From the NCBI RefSeq assembly GCF_000003605.2, contig NW_003152255.1, positions 29,136 through 51,130 of the forward strand: a stretch of 21,995 bases of DNA, given 5' to 3'. The position numbers were made by a program, and so were the translations under genes. A model generated the notes under the pieces. That model saw only the letters and a list, made by a program, of their open reading frames with translations, ran no database searches and was not told where the DNA came from. This stretch comes from Saccoglossus kowalevskii (taxonomy: Eukaryota > Hemichordata > Enteropneusta > Harrimaniidae). Of the stretch, positions 1,090 to 20,445 are shown piece by piece (the stretch's first letter is position 1; each line of letters starts with the position of its first letter).

Positions 1090-4000
1090 GTAAGTTGTGT
1101 GTTTACTCATGGGTACTTTTACTGTTCTTCGTATAGTTTTGATACTGTAATCAGTGTGGTTCATCTCCAGCACTGCTAACTGACCTGTAGTTTACACTGA
1201 ACTGCCATTTGCTTTACCCTAGACTTGGTTAGTGAACAGCACACTGATTGGACATAAGTATTCACGGGGAGGAGTGTGGCGGCCTGTATGAGTTACAGCA
1301 AGTCAGTGATCAAACTTTAGACTAACTCTTTTATTCCTTGTGTAGATTTCATGACTCCTTTGAAGAAAAGGCGGCTCCGAGCATCTATCGCTGCAGAAGA
1401 AGTTGTCACAACAACCATCACATCAGCACCACTGACACCAACAGCAACACCCCCAGCATCTTCTACACCCCCAGCATCTTCTACACCCCCACCTCCTTTG
1501 GTTTCTTCAAGTGATTCATATTCTCACATCCTGCGAACACCTTCTCCTAAGTCCATGATGTCAACTGAGGATAAAAGGAATGGATATAAACCATTGCTAT
1601 CACCAATAACCCCTGTCACACCTGTGTCTCAAGTACGCTATGAGGTGAGTCTTTTGACTATAATTGGCATGTTCAGCTGTATGTTGTCACTCATTCTGTA
1701 TATAAGTGAGTAATCAACCTATACTGTGTCCATCAATCTGCATGATAATCGATATCATGCCAAAGTATTGACCTTTGTGTGTCTTTTTTTTTTTTTCCGT
1801 CTTTTGTGTGTAGCCAATTTCCTCTCCTGATACCACGCCAGAGGTCAACAAGTACCAATCACCATTTCCATTCCCTCCTCCTTTCAAGAAGGTTAGCTGC
1901 TTTATTTTTTTCACTTTCTTTGGCTCGACATCACAGTAAGAGCTAATCAGTTCTTCAATGCATGGTGTTGTGGGTTTTCCACTGGGTACTTGAACAGTAC
2001 TCCTAGTGTAGCATTCATTTCAGCTTACATTGTTAGGGATTGGCTTATAAAAGATAAGGTGGTGGGTTTTTTTAGGCTAGTTTCAAACCTGGTGCACGCA
2101 TGTTTTCTCTCTCACATTGCATCTTCCATTCCTAATGCCCTTTGACATTTCTGTCTTTCTTTCCCTCTTTTTCAATTCTGTTATCTCAGCTATGCACTTT
2201 TCACTTTTCTATAGTAGCAAAGAATAAAGCCGCCATTCATGAGTAACTTTCCATTCTGGTGTTGGTGAAGGAGACTCTATATCAAATTGCCCACATGAGG
2301 TCTTGGTATTAACACTTTTGTTGTGTTTCAGGAATTAGCCAAGCAGATATCGGCTGACAGTGGATTCTCTGGCACACCGACAGACTGCACGCTATCACCA
2401 GCCACACCTCTTGTTACACCAAGGAAATCTTTTGACTGTACAGACTCTTCAAAAACTGAAATATCAGCACTGACTGAAACTAGAGATAGAGACTCTGCAA
2501 GTAATATTTTTAATGTAAACTCTAATGTTGATGATAACGATATCCATGTGGGGTATGTAATGACTACTCCCAGGACTAGTAACATAGAGAGTAATGTCTC
2601 TACGTCAACTGAACATGTGGAAATGACCATATTTAATTCAGAGCCAAAGGTTTTGGACTCGAGTATAAAATCTAGTGTAGTAGCGGTGCCCAATGAGGGG
2701 GCTATACAACTAGACCAAGTTGACCAAACGGAAAGGGTTGAACAGGAAAAGAAAGGGAATGTGATTTCTTCACTGTCAGACCCTAGGACGTCATTACTAA
2801 GAGCACGGAACTTATCCACGGCACTGATTAGCAGTGCCAGTGAACCAGATTTGCAAAAGTCAGTGCAAAGCATTGTGAACTTTAAGCAGTCTGATTCCAC
2901 AGTTGATGTGGAACGCGATAGTGGTAAGATGACATCAGCTGCAGCTGTGGTGGTACCACACAACAGTATATCAAGAAATGAAGGGGTTACATTGCAACCC
3001 AAAGGAGCAAATTTTTCAACAAGGACAAACTTTTATCCACGGCATATGGATCGGTTCTCGAACTCGTACAGGTCTCGTCGGAACTCTGGTCCCGCCGACA
3101 GTAGGACAGGAGATTTTGGCATGTGGTCATCGTCTCATAATCCATTTGCCGAGGATCATGTGAAATTCAGTGAATCTGGGCTGTACACTTCATTTACATC
3201 ACCTCCTAAACTCTACATACCGGCAGCTCGAAATGCTCGCACATTTGATTTCAGTAAAATTCCATCCAAGACCAACTTCTATGTTACAGAATCACCTGTG
3301 ATAAGTTCATCAACAAATATTGTGTGCAAGCCGGCAAGGAATGTTGAGACCCCAGATTGCAAGAGTAATGTAGACACGGAGGATACAACTAAAAACCATA
3401 TTGATGTTGTTGATGATACATCCGTTATGAGCACCAGTAGTTTGATATCAAGCTCTTCTTCAAGTAGTGTGAGCAGCAGCCCAATTGTGACGTTCTCTTC
3501 ATCGAGTGTCGCGAGTAGCCCTGTAACCTGCTCTCCATCGACGAGTAGCCCTGTTACGGAATCACGGAATGTGAATACCAGTCCTGTGATCAGTATGCCG
3601 ATAGCTGTTGTATCAAGTGGCCAAAGTAACGCCCTTCCTCCAAGTGCTGGAGTCGAAAGTTCTGTTCGATTGCCATCTTCGGAAGCAACTGAAAACCAAC
3701 AACCTGATAGCAGGCTTGTTGTCCCTAGTACAACAGCAAATGTTAACGATACTCAGTCATTTTGTGGTCCCGTAGCTGACAGTCCTGTTAGAGTTGTGTC
3801 CTCTGTTTGTGCGCCCAGTAGCTCGCCAACAACTAGTGTGTCGAGCAGTACATCTAGCGATGGTTTTCCACCATCTGGAACATTGCCGTTGATTGTGTCA
3901 CCATCTGAAAGGCCAGCAGTGACAAGCACACCACCATCTACACCTCCTGTTAAGCGAAAGGTTCGTCAGACGAATTCATTGTCTATTAGTAGTAGTAGTT

Positions 4001-7000
4001 CCAAAGTTGTCAAATTCCTGTGTGTCGGTTTTGGTGATACTCAGGGCCAATGCTTTGGTATATTAACAGATTAATTCTTCAACATTGGTGAAATATTTGT
4101 TATCACTGATGTAGTCAGTAACAATCAACATAATATGCCTGTGTCTGATAACTAAAATTCTATAAAACCCTTGATAGAAAGTCCAAATCTGTTTTTGTTT
4201 TCAATAAAACTTTTCGTTACCGATCACAGGCCATAACTTTCAGGAATGGTTTGCCAAAAAAAAGCTCTCCTGAACGCAGTATGAGAGCTCTGCTATTAAA
4301 ATTTTTCAAATTGAGAATTGTGGAGATTGATTTGAGCAAGTGATTAGACGAAATGTTTGAGGTGTTGTTTCGATACTAATTCGCTGAACTGTTCTCTTAA
4401 ACAGGTTTCCCTGCTTGAGTATAGGAAGCGACGAAAAGAACGCTCGACTGCAACCAGTACATCTGTAACACCCAGTAGTAAATCTTGTGATGTCACACCG
4501 ACTCAAAGCCAAGCTAAGCCAATTCCCAGCCTGGCCACTCTGCCGCTGTTTGTTGGCTCAACTGATGATAGGAAGACACCACCTCCAGGAATACTGGTTA
4601 ATAAGATACACACTTCCTCTATTCTGAAGTGTAAAGAGAAGATAAGTGAACAGGACGTGCAATGGTAAGTAAATCTTTTCAAAATATCTTGTCTCTCTTC
4701 CTTATTATAACAGGCCATTTCTCTGTTCACTGCGAGATCCCACATTATGTGTGAAATCCAACGTAAACACAGGACATACAAGTCAAAGGTATTTTGGTGC
4801 ATTTCCACCTAATACTCATTTAATGACAGTGAATTTTGATGAAGGCCATATTCCCTTTGAAAGATGGGCATTTCTAAAGCAACTCATTAAATTTTTTGTG
4901 GCAGCCATTCGATTCACCCCTTTTCATGCATTGGCAGTGAACAAAAATAAAAGTTTTTTTTTTTTTATATTTTACTCCAAAATTCTGTGTACATAGCACA
5001 ATGTATATCATCAAATTATTCAATAACAATTGTCAACAGTGATTTGGTTACAATGGTTAGCTACAATACTGCAAAGAAAGTCGGTAAAGCATGAAATAAG
5101 AGTGCTGTCACTGACATTATGTTAATGAATGAAAGAGACAGTTCCTCATTGTATAGGATGGTTATTGCAGGAAATCGCCGGTACTGGAGAAACTCAAAGA
5201 GGATCCGTTAGACAGATTGCGGAGAGATCTTGATGATAGAAATGTTAAGGAACAAGAAAGAAGGGATTCCAATGGAGGAAAGCACAAGGAAGAGACTGGA
5301 AGATCTCCTTTGAAAAGGTCGACTTCTCCGTTGCCTCCACCTCCGCCACCTTTGAAAATAAAGAAAGCCAAGTCTGGATTGAAGCTTCAAATGCCCCCTC
5401 CACCACCACCTAAACAAGGAGTTCTTGGTATGTTACATTTCTATCAAACAAAATTATATCAAGCTGTGCAGCAGCACCTTATTGCTGAGAAACAAAACTA
5501 TAATTTTACAATTCTTGCACATCTGTTGAAATCAATTCAAGTTTTTGGTGATGATGAGAGAAGTGTCTGTAAGGTTATTGTTTTCGGGGCATTTCCCAAT
5601 TATTACAGTTCAGTTGAATTGCCATGAAAAGCTTTTTGTGGTCAATCTAATACAATATAAGACAAAGTAAAAACAATCTAATTTAATTCTCATTTGCAGT
5701 GTTTTACTAAGAAAAGTAGCATGAATGTTAATTTGCATAATTACTTCATGTTAATCACCTCTATTGTATTCATTGGCCTTCAAAGTGGGCTCTATTGTTT
5801 ATCACAAATCATGGAGTTGTTGTCCTGAATTTATGTCTTGGACGTTACCACTATTTATTTAAATACTCGACTGAAAATAACAGTGACAACATTTTTTTTG
5901 GTGGCAGTTCCAAAGCCGTCAAATTCCTGTGTGTCTGTTTAGGTGATACTCAGGGCCAATGCTTTGGTATATTAAAAGATTGATTCCTTGATGACGGTGG
6001 ACTACTATAAATTATTCACACCAACTCAGATGGTGACAATCTTACATAACAGCATCATTTATGAAAACTTTCCCAAAACTTGTTATTTTATGAAATCCCA
6101 CCTTTTACTGTTACATTTACGTTACATTTTTTTTCCCCCAGCAGGAGATGTCAAAGAAATCATCCCAAACGTAAAACCCAGTGTAATAAGAGGAGCACAT
6201 TTCACCCAGGTTAGTAGTTATAATATTATGTTATAATTAGCAGTCGAGCTGTGGTCAGGGAAAAAATTTGAAGGACATCACCTACCATTCCCACCTCCAA
6301 AGTTTTATTTGGAGTAGTCCATTCTACCTTGGCCGTCAAAGGTCTTGGTGAAAGACTTGTCTTGACTACATGACAATGTCTCTTTTGCCTTGACATTGTT
6401 TAACTTGGATTTTTATCCATATCTATTGCCAAACTATCTGTTTTGGCTGTTTCTGCCATCTTCTCGCTCTTTCTAACAAGTAATCATTGTTTTGTTTTTC
6501 ACATCATCACCAACAGCCACAGCCGCCACCACCACCTCCTCAGCAAGTACAAATACATTCACAAGTTCAACAGTCTGTGCCGCAACAGCAGTTCACTCCA
6601 CCTTTCCAGCAGCCTGTTCAATCAACGCAACAATCACAACCATACCAATTTCAACAGCAGTATCAGTACCAGCAGCAACCACCCCCTCAATCACAGCAGC
6701 AACAGTTGCCAGTGCAGCAGCAACAGTTGCCAGCACAGCAGCAACCACAATTACCAATCCAGCAGGAACCATACCCTCAGCAACAGTATAGTTACAATGG
6801 TTATGGGCAGGGGTTTACTGAACAAAAATATCAACCACAACCGCAACCCCAGTATTACCAACAACAACCACAGGCACAGCAATACCAGCAGTCTACTACG
6901 GCTACTGCATCAGCTCCATACCAACAACAATATTCGCAGCAGCCAACAGTACAGCCGACTCAACCAGTGGTGCAGCAACATCAGCAGCCTGTGTATCAAC

Positions 7001-7119
7001 AATCTTATCAAGGGTACGGACAACAACAACAACAACAGCAGCAGCAGCAGCAACAACAACAACAACAACAACCTTATACTGGCTACACTCAGAACAGCAG
7101 CTACTACAACCAACCATAG
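927..7119 (+). CDS. KMT2E/SETD5-like (MLL5/upSET family) chromatin regulator, C-terminal part, 8 exons
   Basis: Eight exons (927-1089, 1346-1644, 1814-1891, 2332-3960, 4405-4664, 5171-5427, 6145-6209, 6517-7119) join without a frame break into about 1,117 residues ending at TAG 7117-7119; the gene enters from the left. Recognition rests on RWLRQAMSE at the start of the first exon, TPLKKRRLR in the second and VSLLEYRKRRKERS in the fifth, which resemble conserved blocks of vertebrate KMT2E and SETD5. Those proteins carry a PHD finger (KMT2E) and SET domain near the N-terminus and bind chromatin; both domains must lie upstream of this window. What is here is mostly disordered: Ser/Thr/Pro-rich, two polyproline runs and a Gln-rich tail. 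Vertebrates have two paralogues; an invertebrate usually has one, so I do not choose between the symbols. Family call is firm; exon 4's donor and exon 7's acceptor are the least certain borders. Confidence 0.83.
1346..1644 (+). CDS. KMT2E/SETD5-like exon b
   Basis: Acceptor ccttgtgtag ends at 1345, donor gtgagt from 1645. Phase 1 in, phase 0 out; the joining codon gives Asp, so the protein reads DFMTPLKKRRLRASIAAEE. The basic TPLKKRRLR block is typical of this family and could serve as a nuclear localisation signal (inference). A small in-frame tandem duplication encodes PPASST twice in about 1450-1490, followed by a short proline run. The exon ends SQVRYE. Confidence 0.82.
1814..1891 (+). 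CDS. KMT2E/SETD5-like exon c (26 codons)
   Basis: Acceptor ttttgtgtgtag ends at 1813, preceded by a T-rich tract; donor gttagc from 1892. Phase 0 on both sides, so it could be skipped without a frameshift. It encodes PISSPDTTPEVNKYQSPFPF followed by PPPFKK. The short length and open reading make it easy to miss, but both splice sites and the phase fit its neighbours. Confidence 0.75.
2332..3960 (+). CDS. KMT2E/SETD5-like exon d (large, 543 codons, Ser-rich)
   Basis: Acceptor ttttgttgtgtttcag ends at 2331. It encodes ELAKQISADSGFSG onward. The middle contains more complex sequence (RTNFYPRHMDRFSNSYRSRR; FTSPPKLYIPAARNARTFDF), and about exon residues 365-400 are almost pure Ser with Val and Pro. 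I end the exon after PPVKRK at 3960 because the next exon opens with VSLLEYRKRRK in phase 0, and KRK-VSLLEYRKR matches the family. The donor gttcgt is weak. The reading frame stays open past it to a TAA at 4072-4074, giving a possible read-through end. Phase 0 both sides. Confidence 0.78.
3997..4080 (+). repeat. 84-bp dispersed repeat, copy A
   Basis: About 90% identical (8 differences in 84) to 5906-5989, with an identical core from ggtgatactcagg through the following 21 bases. It lies just after the predicted end of the large exon and, in the exon's frame, reads SSKVVKFLCVGFGDTQGQCF and then GILTD before a stop. No terminal inverted repeats or poly-A tail are visible. Confidence 0.75.
4203..4208 (+). 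terminator. intronic poly(A) signal AATAAA
   Basis: AATAAA about 130 bases after the read-through stop at 4072-4074 and inside the predicted intron 3961-4404. Together they could give a truncated isoform lacking VSLLEYRKRRK and everything after it. Confidence 0.35.
4405..4664 (+). CDS. KMT2E/SETD5-like exon e, VSLLEYRKRRK block
   Basis: Acceptor gttctcttaaacag ends at 4404, donor gtaagt from 4665. Phase 0 in, phase 2 out. The first residues, VSLLEYRKRRKERS, are the most diagnostic part of the window for the KMT2E/SETD5 family. Thr/Ser/Pro-rich sequence follows (SVTPSSKSCDVTPTQSQAKP), then TPPPGILVNKIHTSSILKCK, which is more complex and probably conserved. Confidence 0.85.
5171..5427 (+). CDS. 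KMT2E/SETD5-like exon f, charged segment plus polyproline
   Basis: Acceptor ggttattgcag ends at 5170, donor gtatgt from 5428. Phase 2 in (the split codon gives Trp: VQW-KSPVLEKLKEDP), phase 1 out. A highly charged, probably helical segment (LDRLRRDLDDRNVKEQERR) is followed by two polyproline runs, PLPPPPPPLKIKK and MPPPPPPKQG, of the kind bound by SH3, WW or EVH1 domains (inference). Confidence 0.8.
5906..5989 (+). repeat. 84-bp dispersed repeat, copy B
   Basis: Second copy, same strand, in the intron between exons f and g. The same-frame translation reads SSKAVKFLCVCLGDTQGQCF and then GILKD before a stop at the same place as copy A. It is preceded by an acceptor-like tract, tttttttggtggcag. 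Similarity stops abruptly upstream and fades downstream. Confidence 0.75.
6145..6209 (+). CDS. KMT2E/SETD5-like exon g (short, tandem acceptor)
   Basis: A T/C-rich tract ending cccccagcag precedes the exon. Two AGs three bases apart (ending 6141 and 6144) make a NAGNAG acceptor, so the product may carry one extra Ala or not. Phase 1 in, phase 0 out at donor gttagt (6210). Encodes GDVKEIIPNVKPSVIRGAHF then TQ. Confidence 0.72.
6517..7119 (+). CDS. KMT2E/SETD5-like terminal coding exon, Gln/Pro-rich tail
   Basis: Acceptor ccaacag ends at 6516. The exon opens with PQPPPPPPQQVQIHSQVQQS and continues for 200 residues dominated by Gln, Pro and Tyr (for example QYQYQQQPPPQSQQQQ). It ends SSYYNQP before TAG at 7117-7119. 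A run of 17 Gln is encoded by 7021-7071 with mixed CAA and CAG codons. Such tails are typical of prion-like, phase-separating segments in nuclear proteins (inference). The other forward frames are also open only because the CAR repeats are low-complexity. Confidence 0.82.
   Translation, partial: PQPPPPPPQQVQIHSQVQQSVPQQQFTPPFQQPVQSTQQSQPYQFQQQYQYQQQPPPQSQQQQLPVQQQQLPAQQQPQLPIQQEPYPQQQYSYNGYGQGFTEQKYQPQPQPQYYQQQPQAQQYQQSTTATASAPYQQQYSQQPTVQPTQPVVQQHQQPVYQQSYQGYGQQQQQQQQQQQQQQQQQPYTGYTQNSSYYNQP
7021..7071 (+). repeat. (CAR)17 codon repeat encoding polyglutamine
   Basis: Five CAA, five CAG and seven CAA codons in a row. The interruption pattern suggests expansion of two motifs. It lies inside the terminal exon's Gln-rich tail and is likely to vary in length between individuals. 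Confidence 0.9.
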
Positions 7120-15689: not shown

Positions 15690-17880
15690 TTCTTACCCAG
15701 ACCTTTCATATCATGAAAGAACTTGAGAGCAGCATATTAGGGAACTTGTGCTGCATACCAATTTAGCAATAACATCGTCAAGCAAAGTAACACACCATTG
15801 TAACTGCTATGTTACCATCAGTTCCAAACGCTGTAGGCAGCAATGCTTATCCCAGGTATATTCACTGATATACTAGTAATTCAACTACCTGTGACTTAAA
15901 GTAAAACACATTTAGGTATGAATCTTAATTTAAGTATTAGAAGCAACTCTACGAGATATTGAGCTGTTATTGCTAAAGTTTAATGAAATCTGAAATGTTA
16001 TTTCCACATACTGTGTGTCAATACCCCCACTGCATTGTGACCTAATTAGATGCTGGTCTGGGAATTCTAATTGTGTAAACTCATAACAAATCTCCCACAA
16101 AATGTTGATTCGAAGTTCCTACCTCTTGTACAACTTGTATACATTCCATTTACTATGAGAATATCTCTGTCACATGTTTCAGTGAAATATTCTATTAATT
16201 GTGGAGTTCCAGGCCATTGATATGTACAGTTAAACTATCAGGTTGTCAGTGTTTGATTAGCTGGTTAATGTTACATTTGGGGTGACAGGAACGGACGAAA
16301 ACAGAAGAGGAGGGGGTATGAAAACTGTTTGTTTGAAGATTTGTGTATAAGAACTAGGTGGGGTTCTGGGAGGTTGGTGCCAAAAACCAATGCGAAGGTA
16401 CTTATAAGATTGTGTTTGATTGGGTACCTAACACTTAACAGATAAACCAATCATAGAGAAGCGTGTATTTCCAAGTATCAAATGATGTCTAGTATCAAAT
16501 CCAGGACATATGTTGAGATGTCCAGCTTAAGGTATTAGTTATTTGCAATCAATAGTCATGATTCAAGTTTTCACGTGTCACACCCTGCTTTCAGGCTTCA
16601 TTTTAGTGACCTTCATATAGTTTAACATAAGGTTTATGATTCAATATATGATTCACAAAATAGGCAATATATCCTTCAATCCCCGGAGATCGAAGTGTTG
16701 ATATACTGAGTGTAGTTTACAGCGAATATATATTAAAATTTCTTCATACGTCTTTTATTAAACACATCTAAGAACAACAGAATAGGGTAGAATATTAGTT
16801 ACGCATGTTGTTTCCCAGTCGATACTGATATTAATACTTGTTTTTCTTAATAGTCTTGAAATTCGACACGAGTTCGTTCACATAGCTACATCGTAAAACG
16901 TGTTTTAATAAATCTTATGAAATTACGTGGCGTTATTGGTTAAAAGTTCATTGCATGTCTAATCCAACAAAGCATGATAAACAAAACAGATGAGAATGCT
17001 CGAGTTTGATTACAAATGTTTAATAAAACCATTAAAATTCAAATTTGCTGACATTTTTCAAAGTTAAATTCTGAGATGAAAACGAGAGTGCACAGTTTAT
17101 TAACCAGGGGAGGATTACGAAATGTACCGATATTTATTTGGTTCTCAATTCATTACAGTACGTGATACATTAACAGTAAGAAATGAAAGTTCATATTCTA
17201 CGCATGCGCCAGAGTAACCAATGTGATACACATGGATGATACACTCCATATTGTTTTAGACAGTAATATAACATTAGACAATAAATCAACGTTTGTTTTG
17301 AACGAATCAATATGTCATGATTTATTGACTTACATGTACATATCCAAATAACTTATCGTCAGCTAAAATCTTTGTTTGGCCATTTTTTTCCAAGACGGAG
17401 AGGCAGTGTATATTGTTGTTCACAACTGGAAGGGGTGATACTGCGAGAAAGTGTCTTTTATTTTCATCTACTGTATAAGTCGGAGTTGGACAGCCATATT
17501 TTTCTGGCGAGAGCACTGCAACTTCAGAACAATATATCCACATTTGGAACATGTCAGTTTTCAAAGTCAGTTACAACCACTGTATGTTGAAGACTTTGTA
17601 CTAATATATTTGTAAGACCAGCTCTCAAGTGTAAGTTCGTGGACCTTTCTCAGAGTGATGATAGTAATTTCATTTACATTGTGACAACAGTGTGACCATT
17701 GGACGCTAAACCCTATGGCACATTCCTGGTCTGGCCTCTAGCTATGGACCCCCAGCTATCTGGTCTCATGTTAAAGGCATTCACGCTTTACCTGACAATA
17801 AGCGGCTGGGCATTGAAACTATTGGGGTAGAATGAAAAATAACACGTTAAAAACATAATTGATATTGATATTGGGGCATC
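15690..17880. other. intergenic spacer
   Basis: AT-rich, with no convincing gene. Overlapping frames on both strands around 17322-17590 look like chance openings. A palindromic NRF1-like site lies at about 17202-17209. Nothing else was recognised. Confidence 0.4.
17201..17210. promoter_or_regulatory. NRF1-like site (cgcatgcgcc)
   Basis: GCATGCGC is the core of the NRF1 consensus (GCGCATGCGC) and stands out in CpG-poor surroundings. It is about 770 bp upstream of the first CARD exon. Function is inferred only. Confidence 0.25.
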
Positions 17881-17889
17881 GGTTTTGGG

Positions 17890-17897
17890 TCACGTGA
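17890..17897. promoter_or_regulatory. E-box TCACGTGA upstream of the first CARD exon
   Basis: gTCACGTGAg is a palindromic bHLH-zip (MITF/TFE/USF type) site about 80 bp upstream of the ATG at 17978. Its distance fits a proximal promoter or 5' UTR position. Confidence 0.35.
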
Positions 17898-17977
17898 GGT
17901 CGCGAGTACATTGACCTCAGGACTGGCTCTCCATGATTACAAAAGGATGTCATACTTAGTATGATAATTTCATTATA

Positions 17978-18254
17978 ATGGAAGTCCGTCATAAGAAGGC
18001 CTTAAACTCGCAATTTGTGACACTTGCTGAGGAAATCAATCCCGAGTATATCTTTCCGTACCTGATCGAAGACGGCATTCTTACTCCGCATATGGCGCTT
18101 ATCATCAGCACCGGTGGGACTGTTTACGACAAGGCTAATCGTCTGTTAAGCGTACTTCCGTCTCGCGGGCCAGGTGCATTTGGTTCGTTTTTGAGAGCTC
18201 TTGGTGTGTATTATCCGTGGTTGAAAGACGGTCTTATTGCGGCTGTTAATACAG
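17978..18254 (+). CDS. CARD domain exon 1A of a CRADD/RAIDD-like adaptor
   Basis: ATG 17978 opens a 95-codon frame that is almost entirely one CARD. Helix-like segments follow the order seen in CRADD: MEVRHKKALNSQF at the start, INPEYIFPYLIEDGILT in the middle, and LLSVLPSRGPGAFGSFLRAL near the end. That last block is very close to human CRADD's [20 protein letters not shown]. Before the TGA at 18263-18265 an ACAG|gtgacg donor (18255) ends the exon in phase 1, exactly the phase needed by the Death-domain exon at 19837. Spliced, this gives 92 + 127 = 219 residues, CARD then Death, versus 199 in human CRADD. In vertebrates CRADD's CARD binds caspase-2. If unspliced, it makes a 95-residue CARD-only protein. 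Confidence 0.72.
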
Positions 18255-18265
18255 GTGACGTCTGA

Positions 18266-19230
18266 GGTTGGTAGAAATCGCAAACCACCATTAAACAGTG
18301 GACAGAATGATAGCTAAGTACAAAATACAAAATAAGCTAACTACGTACTAGACACGATCCAGGGTAACCTAATACCGACATTTATTGATTTAAATTTGAA
18401 ATCCTTTTAATTTGGTCAATTTTTTGATATGCTATTTTCGTGAAGAAATCGTTGAGCGGGGTAAGGCTACTAAAAATATCTTCTGTTCTACATAGTGCTG
18501 GTATATGCGTATAGGCGAGCTTTATATCGACAAGCAGCCATGTCAACTGAAGCCACAGTGAATACTACACAACAACATAGCAGTCCAAAAAAAGTTGCAC
18601 ATTATCTGAAATGTAATAAAACATTTGCATTACGGGCCTCCTAAAAATCCATAAGCTTGGCTATGTACTCATCAATCCCTCGAATTGTGACCCCAAATGT
18701 CCCTACGTAATAAAACCGCGCCCGGCCGCGTTCAAGTTAAAGTCGATCTCGAAGATTCGACCTGTTGTTTTACCTATTATGAAATATAATGTTTCGAAGT
18801 AAAATTGACCTTTTTGGAATTATTTCCATATGAATTAATTTTTGAAGGCATTATTTCATAAAAAAAATAATGCTCGATAAAATTTACCAATAATTCAGTA
18901 CAGCCACAATTACCCATCTTGTAACTGCATACAATTTGTTCGCCTCATGTATCCGAACATAATTTTTAGATGTGATACAACTTTCTTAAAGATCATTATT
19001 TTCATGGGTGTTAGACTTTAATATTTTTGTGCAAACAGAAGTTCGACTATATTTTTTTATCTCGATTTTATGAGCAACAGCTAAAAGTCAAGGAAATCTG
19101 GCGATAAGAAGCCAACTATTGCTAGTCAGGGAAATCGATAAAGTATTCAAGATAAAACAACAATAAACAAGCAAACCCGCGGGCGAGCAATACATAGAAA
19201 TCAGAGAGTTTTCTCAGAAATACGGCTATT
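18266..19230 (+). other. spacer or intron between the two CARD exons
   Basis: AT-rich with T/A runs; no coding frame. A GC-rich island, aaccgcgcccggccgcg (about 18715-18731), and the imperfect palindrome gtcgatctcgaagattcgac (about 18741-18760) are the only notable elements. It would be intronic if exon 1A is spliced to 19837. Confidence 0.4.
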
Positions 19231-19231
19231 T

Positions 19232-19297
19232 CTTCCGGGTGGAAGAACTATACGCGACTGTGCAACACTACTAAGCGTCACGGGTTCACATAGCAAC
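19232..19297. promoter_or_regulatory. candidate promoter elements upstream of CARD exon 1B
   Basis: CTTCCGGG (19232-19239) is an ETS-type site read on the - strand (CCCGGAAG). catagcaac (about 19289-19297) resembles an RFX X-box half-site. Both lie 80-145 bp upstream of the ATG at 19376 in a locally CpG-richer stretch, with no TATA box. This is consistent with an independent TATA-less promoter for the second CARD segment. Confidence 0.35.
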
Positions 19298-19375
19298 GAA
19301 GTAGTCAGTCAGCTTCGTTCCAGGACCAGATCGTATTTACTGGTAGTTCCCATGATTTTCAATCACAGGAGCACC

Positions 19376-19660
19376 ATGCAAGAAGAACACAGGAAGGCAC
19401 TGACCAGTGTACACTTACAACTTTTGGACAATCTAGACCCGACTTATATTTTACCGTACATGACACAGGACGAAACTTTTACCAAGCCAATGTCGGAAGA
19501 CATCATGTCGAGGTCGACACAACGCGACAGGGCGGACCGTTTTCTAGATATTTTGCCAACGAGAGGGCCAAACGCATTCAAATCCTTTCTCAATGCCTTG
19601 GGAAAAACGAATTCGTGGTTGAAATCGGTGAAAGGAAAAAAAAAACACATTTATGATTAG
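19376..19660 (+). CDS. second CARD segment (exon 1B or CARD-only gene)
   Basis: Open from ATG 19352; I prefer ATG 19376, which gives MQEEHRKALTSVHLQLLDNL, aligned with the start of the first CARD. The core LDNLDPTYILPYMTQDETF and FLDILPTRGPNAFKSFLNAL clearly make a CRADD/caspase-2-type CARD. The segment is paralogous to 17978-18254. A donor-like gtgaaa at 19628 would end it in phase 0, which does not match the good acceptor at 19837 (phase 1) but would match weak acceptors before 19857 or 19863. Unspliced, it stops at TAG 19658-19660 after a Lys-rich tail (KGKKKHIYD) encoded over a 10-A run. It could be a CARD-only regulator, an alternative first exon, or a decayed duplicate. Confidence 0.65.
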   Translation: MQEEHRKALTSVHLQLLDNLDPTYILPYMTQDETFTKPMSEDIMSRSTQRDRADRFLDILPTRGPNAFKSFLNALGKTNSWLKSVKGKKKHIYD

Positions 19661-19836
19661 TATATTTGAGACTTCAATGTAACTTTGAAAGTCTACATAA
19701 ACCAGAAACCTGATTGGCTTGTGGGTCAAAGGTTTGGGTCCAGCAGACAATCAGTATCAAAAATGTTGAAAAACGAATATTGACCAGAGTCTTTTATTGT
19801 TGGCCTTATTTTATTTCTACAATCATTGCATTTCAG

Positions 19837-20219
19837 ATAATACTCAACTGTACCAGCCTCAGCCAACACCAAAATCATCACAACCAACATCAAGCAATGC
19901 GCCATCAGCGGCTGGTATGACCACACAGATGGCCAGTCTGTCTGTATCTGTGCAGTCAGATAGCGAGAGAGTTACAGAACAACAGTTGATGTTTGTGGCT
20001 GAGAAAATGAACGGCGACTGGGAAAGTCAGGCAATAAGACTTGGTTTCCAAAGCGCGGACGTCGCTCGATTTAAAAACGACAACAATGGAATGATTATGC
20101 AGATACATGCAATGCTCCGTGCCTGGAGGACAAAAAAAGGACCGGATGCAACATGTGAACGTCTCAAACAAGAACTGAAAGATGCTGGAGTTGACTTGGA
20201 TGCTTATGGGCTCCTATGA
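19837..20219 (+). CDS. Death domain exon of the CRADD/RAIDD-like adaptor
   Basis: Acceptor aatcattgcatttcag ends at 19836; the phase is 1 in. A Pro/Ser/Gln/Thr-rich linker (YQPQPTPKSSQPTSS) leads to a Death domain of about 80 residues. It starts near VTEQQLMFVAEKMNGDWESQ, passes RLGFQSADVARFKNDN and MLRAWRTKKGPDATCERLKQ, and ends LKDAGVDLDAYGLL before TGA 20217-20219. Order and residues parallel the human CRADD Death domain ([40 protein letters not shown]), which binds PIDD1 in the PIDDosome. An internal ATG at 19917 could give a Death-only form. The CARD-then-Death order supports CRADD rather than a caspase or an NLR. Confidence 0.78.
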
Positions 20220-20445
20220 AATTGACAGACAAATGTAAATAATTAAACAAAATAACTTATACAGAATTGTGAAAGGTCATGCAACCGCGTGGGACCCTTA
20301 TTGATTGCAATGTGTCGTGACCACGAAGCTTTTTAATTTCACATGGACAAACCGAGTGTGTGACATCTTTGAATGAACATGTTGCAATTACCCGGTATGC
20401 GAAGAGTGACTCGACCCTTTATAAAAATAAAATAGTGAATTGAAT
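20220..20445 (+). other. 3' UTR of the CRADD-like gene
   Basis: Short AT-rich stretch after the TGA, ending shortly after the poly(A) signal at 20426. An ATTAAA variant lies at about 20241. Confidence 0.5.
20426..20431 (+). terminator. poly(A) signal AATAAA, CRADD-like gene
   Basis: AATAAA within aaaaataaaatag, about 207 bases after the stop codon, followed by a T-containing region. It is the first canonical signal downstream. Confidence 0.55.

Follow-up and report, generated by a model that had tools for sequence, protein, structure and literature searches.

Two paralogous CARD frames, termed CARD1 and CARD2 here, precede a Death-domain exon on the forward strand of the window, i.e., the whole analysed stretch of 21,995 nucleotides of Saccoglossus kowalevskii DNA. 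The proposed gene would encode a bipartite CARD1-Death adaptor, and CARD2, nested in the intron of this gene, would be made as a CARD-only regulator; we hold this reading tentatively, with slightly less than even confidence. The layout itself had been described in an initial annotation as two paralogous CARD frames on one strand, about 1.1 kb apart and followed by a Death exon, and it was recovered as such. All three domains exceeded the curated Pfam cut-offs (Table 1), the gap between the CARDs was 1.11 kb, and CARD2 is a stand-alone frame with its own ATG and stop. Profile searches of the genome (572 Mb in 4830 contigs) at E 0.001 revealed at least 13 CARD places and at least 55 Death places, thus chance does not explain a pair of CARDs together with a Death domain inside 2.2 kb. 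The window is free of N runs, and the genome CARD search found CARD1 and CARD2 once each, hence no further copy of the locus came to light. A search of the window and 10 kb on each side for remains of a third CARD or of another Death exon yielded only short matches with E 0.48 or worse. In the same genome, COX1 on contig C4830 (17,037 nt) is read with TGA as Trp and contains eight ATA codons, several of them at positions of Ile in animals, as well as one AAA at a position of Lys; in a bilaterian, this combination of ATA for Ile and AAA for Lys suggests a hemichordate.

Table 1. Features of the locus, with positions counted from the first letter of the window and splice sites ranked among all GT or AG dinucleotides of the window
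Feature	Position	Strand	Evidence
CARD1 open frame	17978..18265 (ATG to stop)	+	95 aa unspliced; Pfam CARD 44.7 bits, E 1.4e-11
CARD1 coding exon, proposed	17978-18254	+	ends at donor 18255
CARD1 donor GT, phase 1, CAG/GTGACG	18255..18256	+	99.3rd percentile of 1333 GTs; best of 23 in frame
Dispersed repeat, part, between the CARDs	about 18800..19108	+	18 further genome matches, 68-82 % identity
Candidate acceptor AG, 7 nt 5' of CARD2 ATG, exon start 19369	19367..19368	+	98.4th percentile of 1239 AGs
CARD2 open frame	19376..19660 (ATG to stop)	+	94 aa; Pfam CARD 56.6 bits, E 2.6e-15
CARD2 weak candidate donor GT, phase 0, TCG/GTGAAA	19628..19629	+	88.1st percentile of 1333 GTs; best of 11 in frame
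Death-exon acceptor AG, TTTCAG, phase 1, exon start 19837	19835..19836	+	88.5th percentile of 1239 AGs
Linker and Death-domain exon with stop codon	19837..20219	+	Pfam Death 41.4 bits, E 1.6e-10
Two AGs, phase-0 exon starts 19857 and 19863	19855..19862	+	63.0 and 88.6 percentile; 20-26 nt inside Death exon
First AATAAA after CARD2 stop	20426..20431	+	motif list; ATTAAA earlier at 20242

Splice sites were scored with a consensus matrix applied to every GT (1333) and every AG (1239) of the window. Two further GTs inside CARD1 reached the 98.9 and 97.4 percentile, therefore the score of the donor at 18255 is a support and not a proof. In the 12 nt preceding the Death-exon acceptor a script detected no further AG. 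The suggestion that the phase-1 donor of CARD1 fits the phase-1 acceptor of the Death exon was borne out for both phases: joining 18254 to 19837 creates an open frame of 219 aa with the CARD, a proline- and serine-rich linker and a C-terminal Death domain (41.4 bits, cut-off 22.6). The phases and the open frame agree with a placement of CARD and Death domain in one transcript. An N-terminal RAIDD-type CARD, a linker, a C-terminal Death domain and a size of about 200 aa are features of CRADD/RAIDD, known from vertebrates and with homologues reported in molluscs; the human CRADD has a length of about 200 aa. CRADD/RAIDD genes carry one CARD, whereas here a second intact CARD is located between the CARD exon and the Death exon.

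The affiliation to CRADD/RAIDD, also part of the initial annotation, was supported on the CARD side. CARD1 and CARD2 shared 44.6 % identity over residues 1-83 in an ungapped alignment (E about 1e-21). Among solved structures the best relative of both was RAIDD (3crd), with 43.2 bits for CARD1 and 32.5 bits for CARD2, the latter followed by caspase-9; caspase-1 was absent from the 33 solved-structure matches of CARD2 at E up to 1. In the reverse direction, the human RAIDD CARD found five places in the genome, led by CARD1 (41.1 bits) and CARD2 (30.7 bits) before three others (26.3, 24.2 and 22.1 bits). In a comparison of 12 CARDs, CARD1 and CARD2 were each other's best match. A tree of these 12 sequences, constructed without the partial CARDs of C1466 and C2449 and without the second CARD of C1644, joined CARD1 and CARD2 at 72/68, with no branch strongly supported. 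The simplest reading of these sequence relations is that an exon for a RAIDD-type CARD was duplicated long ago. A difference in surface charge was dropped as a distinguishing feature: the pI of the full CARD2 is 9.3, but without the last ten residues it is 6.7, equal to CARD1.

On the Death side the affiliation was not specific. The best solved relatives of the Death exon were THOC1 (26.7 bits) and CRADD (25.0 bits). When the genome was searched with the human Death domains, this exon ranked 10th of 19 places for CRADD and 5th of 15 for THOC1, so that a CRADD-specific Death domain was not shown by reverse search; the divergence of Death domains is too great for these ranks to be decisive. One other CARD and Death pair, less than 0.5 kb apart on contig C1000, was considered as the real CRADD and rejected, since among solved chains its CARD was nearest to caspase-9 and its Death domain nearest to FADD. 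Thus, because of its CARDs, the present locus is still the best candidate for CRADD.

If CARD2 were a relic, its sequence should resemble a neutrally decayed CARD. Over 83 aligned codons CARD1 and CARD2 differ at 41, 28 and 48 first, second and third codon positions, corresponding to a pS of 0.67 and a pN of 0.41. In a simulation CARD1 was decayed neutrally to 70, 63, 50 and 43 % identity in 300 runs each, and the descendants were scored with a profile of ten other CARDs, nine from the genome and the human RAIDD. CARD1 itself scored 55.1 and CARD2 63.1. None of the 300 descendants reached the score of CARD2 at any of the four divergences; the best scores were 52.1, 43.6, 33.8 and 22.6, and an intact frame was retained in 85, 55, 40 and 28 of 300 runs, respectively. 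The simulation had no indels and was hence lenient; it presupposes that part of the change occurred on the branch of CARD2 and is blind to a recent death. From sequence, CARD2 looks selected and probably remained a CARD through most of its past, as a maintained paralogue and not noise.

These results bear on three less probable readings. That CARD2 is a dead or dying exon copy in an ordinary single-CARD CRADD gene is very improbable. A dead copy private to the lineage was among the refuting cases named in the initial annotation. A long-dead copy is not supported, given the decay test, the intact frame of 94 codons and a CARD score above that of CARD1; the weak donor, the missing poly(A) motif before the Death exon and the repeat upstream would suit a dead copy, and a death of recent date would escape the test, the frame being still intact. 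CARD2 as an independent gene inside the adaptor gene, with another role and, e.g., another caspase or an NLR-like partner, is improbable. CARD frames are neighbours elsewhere: locus L022 on C1644 has two on one strand, at 4708 and 5328, the second starting 620 nt after the first, thus close CARD pairs occur elsewhere in this genome, and the sister grouping of CARD1 and CARD2 in the tree is weak. Its position between CARD1 and the Death exon on the same strand, the mutual best matches and the common proximity to RAIDD among solved chains speak against independence. Least probable of all is a Death exon that belongs to a different gene and is joined to neither CARD. The search ranks of the exon and the narrow lead of THOC1 over CRADD among its solved relatives would be expected then; these ranks are not decisive at such a divergence of Death domains, and the phase-matched donor and acceptor on the same strand, 1.6 kb apart, as well as an open frame of 219 aa with the domain order of CRADD, argue for one gene.

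More weight has to be given to the question whether CARD2 is made alone or in fusion with the Death domain. The frame of CARD2 contains only two phase-1 GTs, at 19407 (54.8 percentile) and 19539 (2.6 percentile), splicing at which would truncate the CARD at codon 10 or 54, respectively, hence CARD2 has no usable phase-1 donor. Joining 19627 to the main Death acceptor at 19837 shifts the frame and leads to a stop at 111 aa. Because of these two features the anatomy, as read from the sequence, fits a nested CARD-only product slightly better than an exchange of CARDs on the Death domain. CARD2 ends at its own in-frame stop, and the best splice signal nearby is an acceptor (98.4) and not a donor (88.1). 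This strong acceptor directly before the ATG suggests a 5' untranslated exon; another acceptor, with an exon start at 19324, reached the 98.2nd percentile. A structure of CARD2 predicted by AlphaFold2 from the single sequence (pLDDT 66.9) had helices between residues 4 and 87, with a pLDDT below 50 for residues 1-6 and 87-94. Foldseek searches with this model gave no match reaching E 0.001 (best E 0.029); the best 50 of 110 matches were mostly CARDs (NOD1, caspase-9, Apaf-1, ICEBERG, CARD8), with RAIDD at rank 26. The model agrees with a CARD fold and adds little to the Pfam result. The presence of ICEBERG, a CARD-only protein, in these weak matches is in line with a CARD-only product; the low pLDDT of the last 8 residues is a point against it. 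So is the loss of similarity to CARD1 after residue 83. The candidate donor follows residue 84, and a coding exon of CARD2 ending at this point would give such a pattern, but the CARD fold ends about there too. The motifs AATAAA (18615, 18709, 19162) and ATTAAA (18290) are present between the CARDs; neither was found between the stop of CARD2 at 19660 and the Death exon, therefore transcription of CARD2 would continue into the Death exon.

The same end of similarity near 19628, the same lack of poly(A) motifs and the retained high CARD score of CARD2 are consistent with alternative first coding exons. Transcripts spliced from 19627 to 19857 or 19863 would then begin at a second promoter or 5' exon, and one Death domain would be provided with two interchangeable caspase-binding heads. 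For these junctions, proposed in the initial annotation, the phase-0 agreement held and the frames of 204 and 202 aa, respectively, are open over the full length, while the signals proved weak (donor 88.1; acceptors 63.0 and 88.6). The donor differs in phase from that of CARD1, and the acceptor at 19837 must be bypassed for an AG 20 or 26 nt inside the exon. We consider such a CARD2-Death protein the principal alternative to the CARD-only product, possible but unlikely. Clustered alternative first exons are known from genes of the protocadherin or UGT1A type; duplicated 5' coding exons before a common 3' exon are the likeness, but here there are just two copies, whose donors do not fit one common acceptor in phase. 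Doubtful is also a wider version of the exchange, with two bipartite adaptors from one gene that have a common Death domain and different CARDs by alternative first exons, the same platform being wired to two caspases and CARD2-only forms acting as a further brake. A protein with both CARDs in tandem was rejected: splicing of CARD1 to 19369 enters the wrong frame and stops after 11 codons, leaving a CARD1-only form.

The intron and its surroundings contained several repeats. The upstream region that had been ascribed to CARD2 as its own consists partly of a dispersed repeat (Table 1), and the CpG content does not single out a promoter of CARD2. CpG observed/expected ratios in 300-nt windows starting at 17751 to 19501 were 0.75-1.74 versus 0.50 for the whole window, and a background of 14 loci had a mean of 0.74 per window and 0.99 pooled. 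As the undepleted stretch of about 17.8 to 19.8 kb spans CARD1, intron and CARD2 alike, the CpG profile was discarded as promoter evidence. A 25-nt inverted repeat (18593-18617 and 19825-19849, 84 %) overlaps the Death-exon acceptor; 21 of 25 positions matched and the best of 300 intron shuffles had 18. It was rejected as a splice switch, since 10 of 200 first-order Markov shuffles of the whole 1954-nt region contained an inverted repeat of equal or better quality and its position was noticed afterwards. Farther upstream an 81-nt segment, probably a small dispersed repeat, occurs twice in the window (3997-4077 and 5906-5986, 92.6 % identity); the copies end two open frames that have the peptide KFLCV..GDTQGQCFGIL in common. 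The start of the window has local repeats (1-79/158-235 and 110-146/235-271) with 86 % and 89 % identity. Two other open frames were observed, a Ser/Thr/Pro-rich one of 591 aa (2299-4074; 2344-4071 without Pfam match) and a very glutamine-rich one of 211 aa (6484-7119, without Pfam match) that is perhaps part of a nuclear protein gene.

CRADD/RAIDD adaptors have a caspase-2-like CARD and the Death domain of PIDD1 as partners. Caspase domains matched at 28 places of the genome. A CARD-bearing caspase was not identified: among the matches listed, the 28 caspase-domain matches and the CARD matches, the latter on 11 contigs, have no contig in common. Five caspase fragments gave nothing in 14 regions except one weak match in L020 (E 0.022). 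Two of the caspase-domain matches, C3005:324-947 and C1141:568-1191, lie near the contig starts in open frames of 464 and 462 aa, score similarly and are perhaps intronless copies. ZU5 and Death matches within 5 kb on the same strand were present on 11 contigs, and PIDD- or UNC5-like proteins are possible from these sequence matches. A PIDD1 orthologue was not identified in the genome; the PIDD S68 profile had no match, which carries no information since its control was silent as well. The 127-kb contig C303 has two CARD matches, one Death and one ZU5 match, possibly a cluster of death-fold genes.

The sequence of events may be envisaged as follows. In a CRADD/RAIDD-like adaptor gene, the exon of the caspase-recruiting CARD would have been duplicated long ago. 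CARD1, spliced from 18254 to 19837, would yield the bipartite adaptor of 219 aa that brings a caspase to a Death-domain platform protein, and CARD2 would have remained in the intron as an intact, selected CARD. A CARD2-only protein of 94 aa could arise either with a start of its own or through splicing of a transcript at 19369. Such a protein, having no Death domain, would act as a built-in brake by binding the caspase of the adaptor or by capping CARD1 assemblies.

The literature reports one CRADD gene listed for Aplysia (PMC9334734), components of the PIDDosome in oysters (PMC8917759), a mussel homologue of RAIDD (PMC7836458), a PIDDosome structure (PMC3344246), CARD docking (PMC11755718) and expansions of TRADD-N in marine animals, hemichordates included (PMC8195603). 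In the titles and abstract openings searched, with few subscription journals among them, no description of a CRADD gene with two CARDs was found. The closest described analogues are CARD16/COP, CARD17/INCA and CARD18/ICEBERG, which are described as products of duplication that resemble caspase-1 and are confined to higher primates (PMC3775265). Like CARD2 these are lone CARDs of about 90-100 aa with the potential to compete for a caspase-activating CARD; CARD2, however, is nearest to the adaptor RAIDD and is located inside a RAIDD-like gene, and caspase-1 is missing from its solved-structure matches at E up to 1. A fish iridovirus encodes a lone CARD reported as an inhibitor of apoptosis (PMC4457926), so that lone CARDs outside the primates are, by that description, already known. 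It has about the size of CARD2, but it is viral, whereas CARD2 belongs to the host and is flanked by other host exons.

A regulatory role of CARD2, as decoy or as exchangeable head, is plausible. Host CARD-only decoys have been described as a recent invention of higher primates with similarity to caspase-1 (PMC3775265). If the reading is true, an old CARD duplicate in an invertebrate RAIDD-like gene would mean that caspase-activating adaptors can hold their own brake or a switchable head, and the choice of the caspase by PIDDosome-like platforms would become directly testable.
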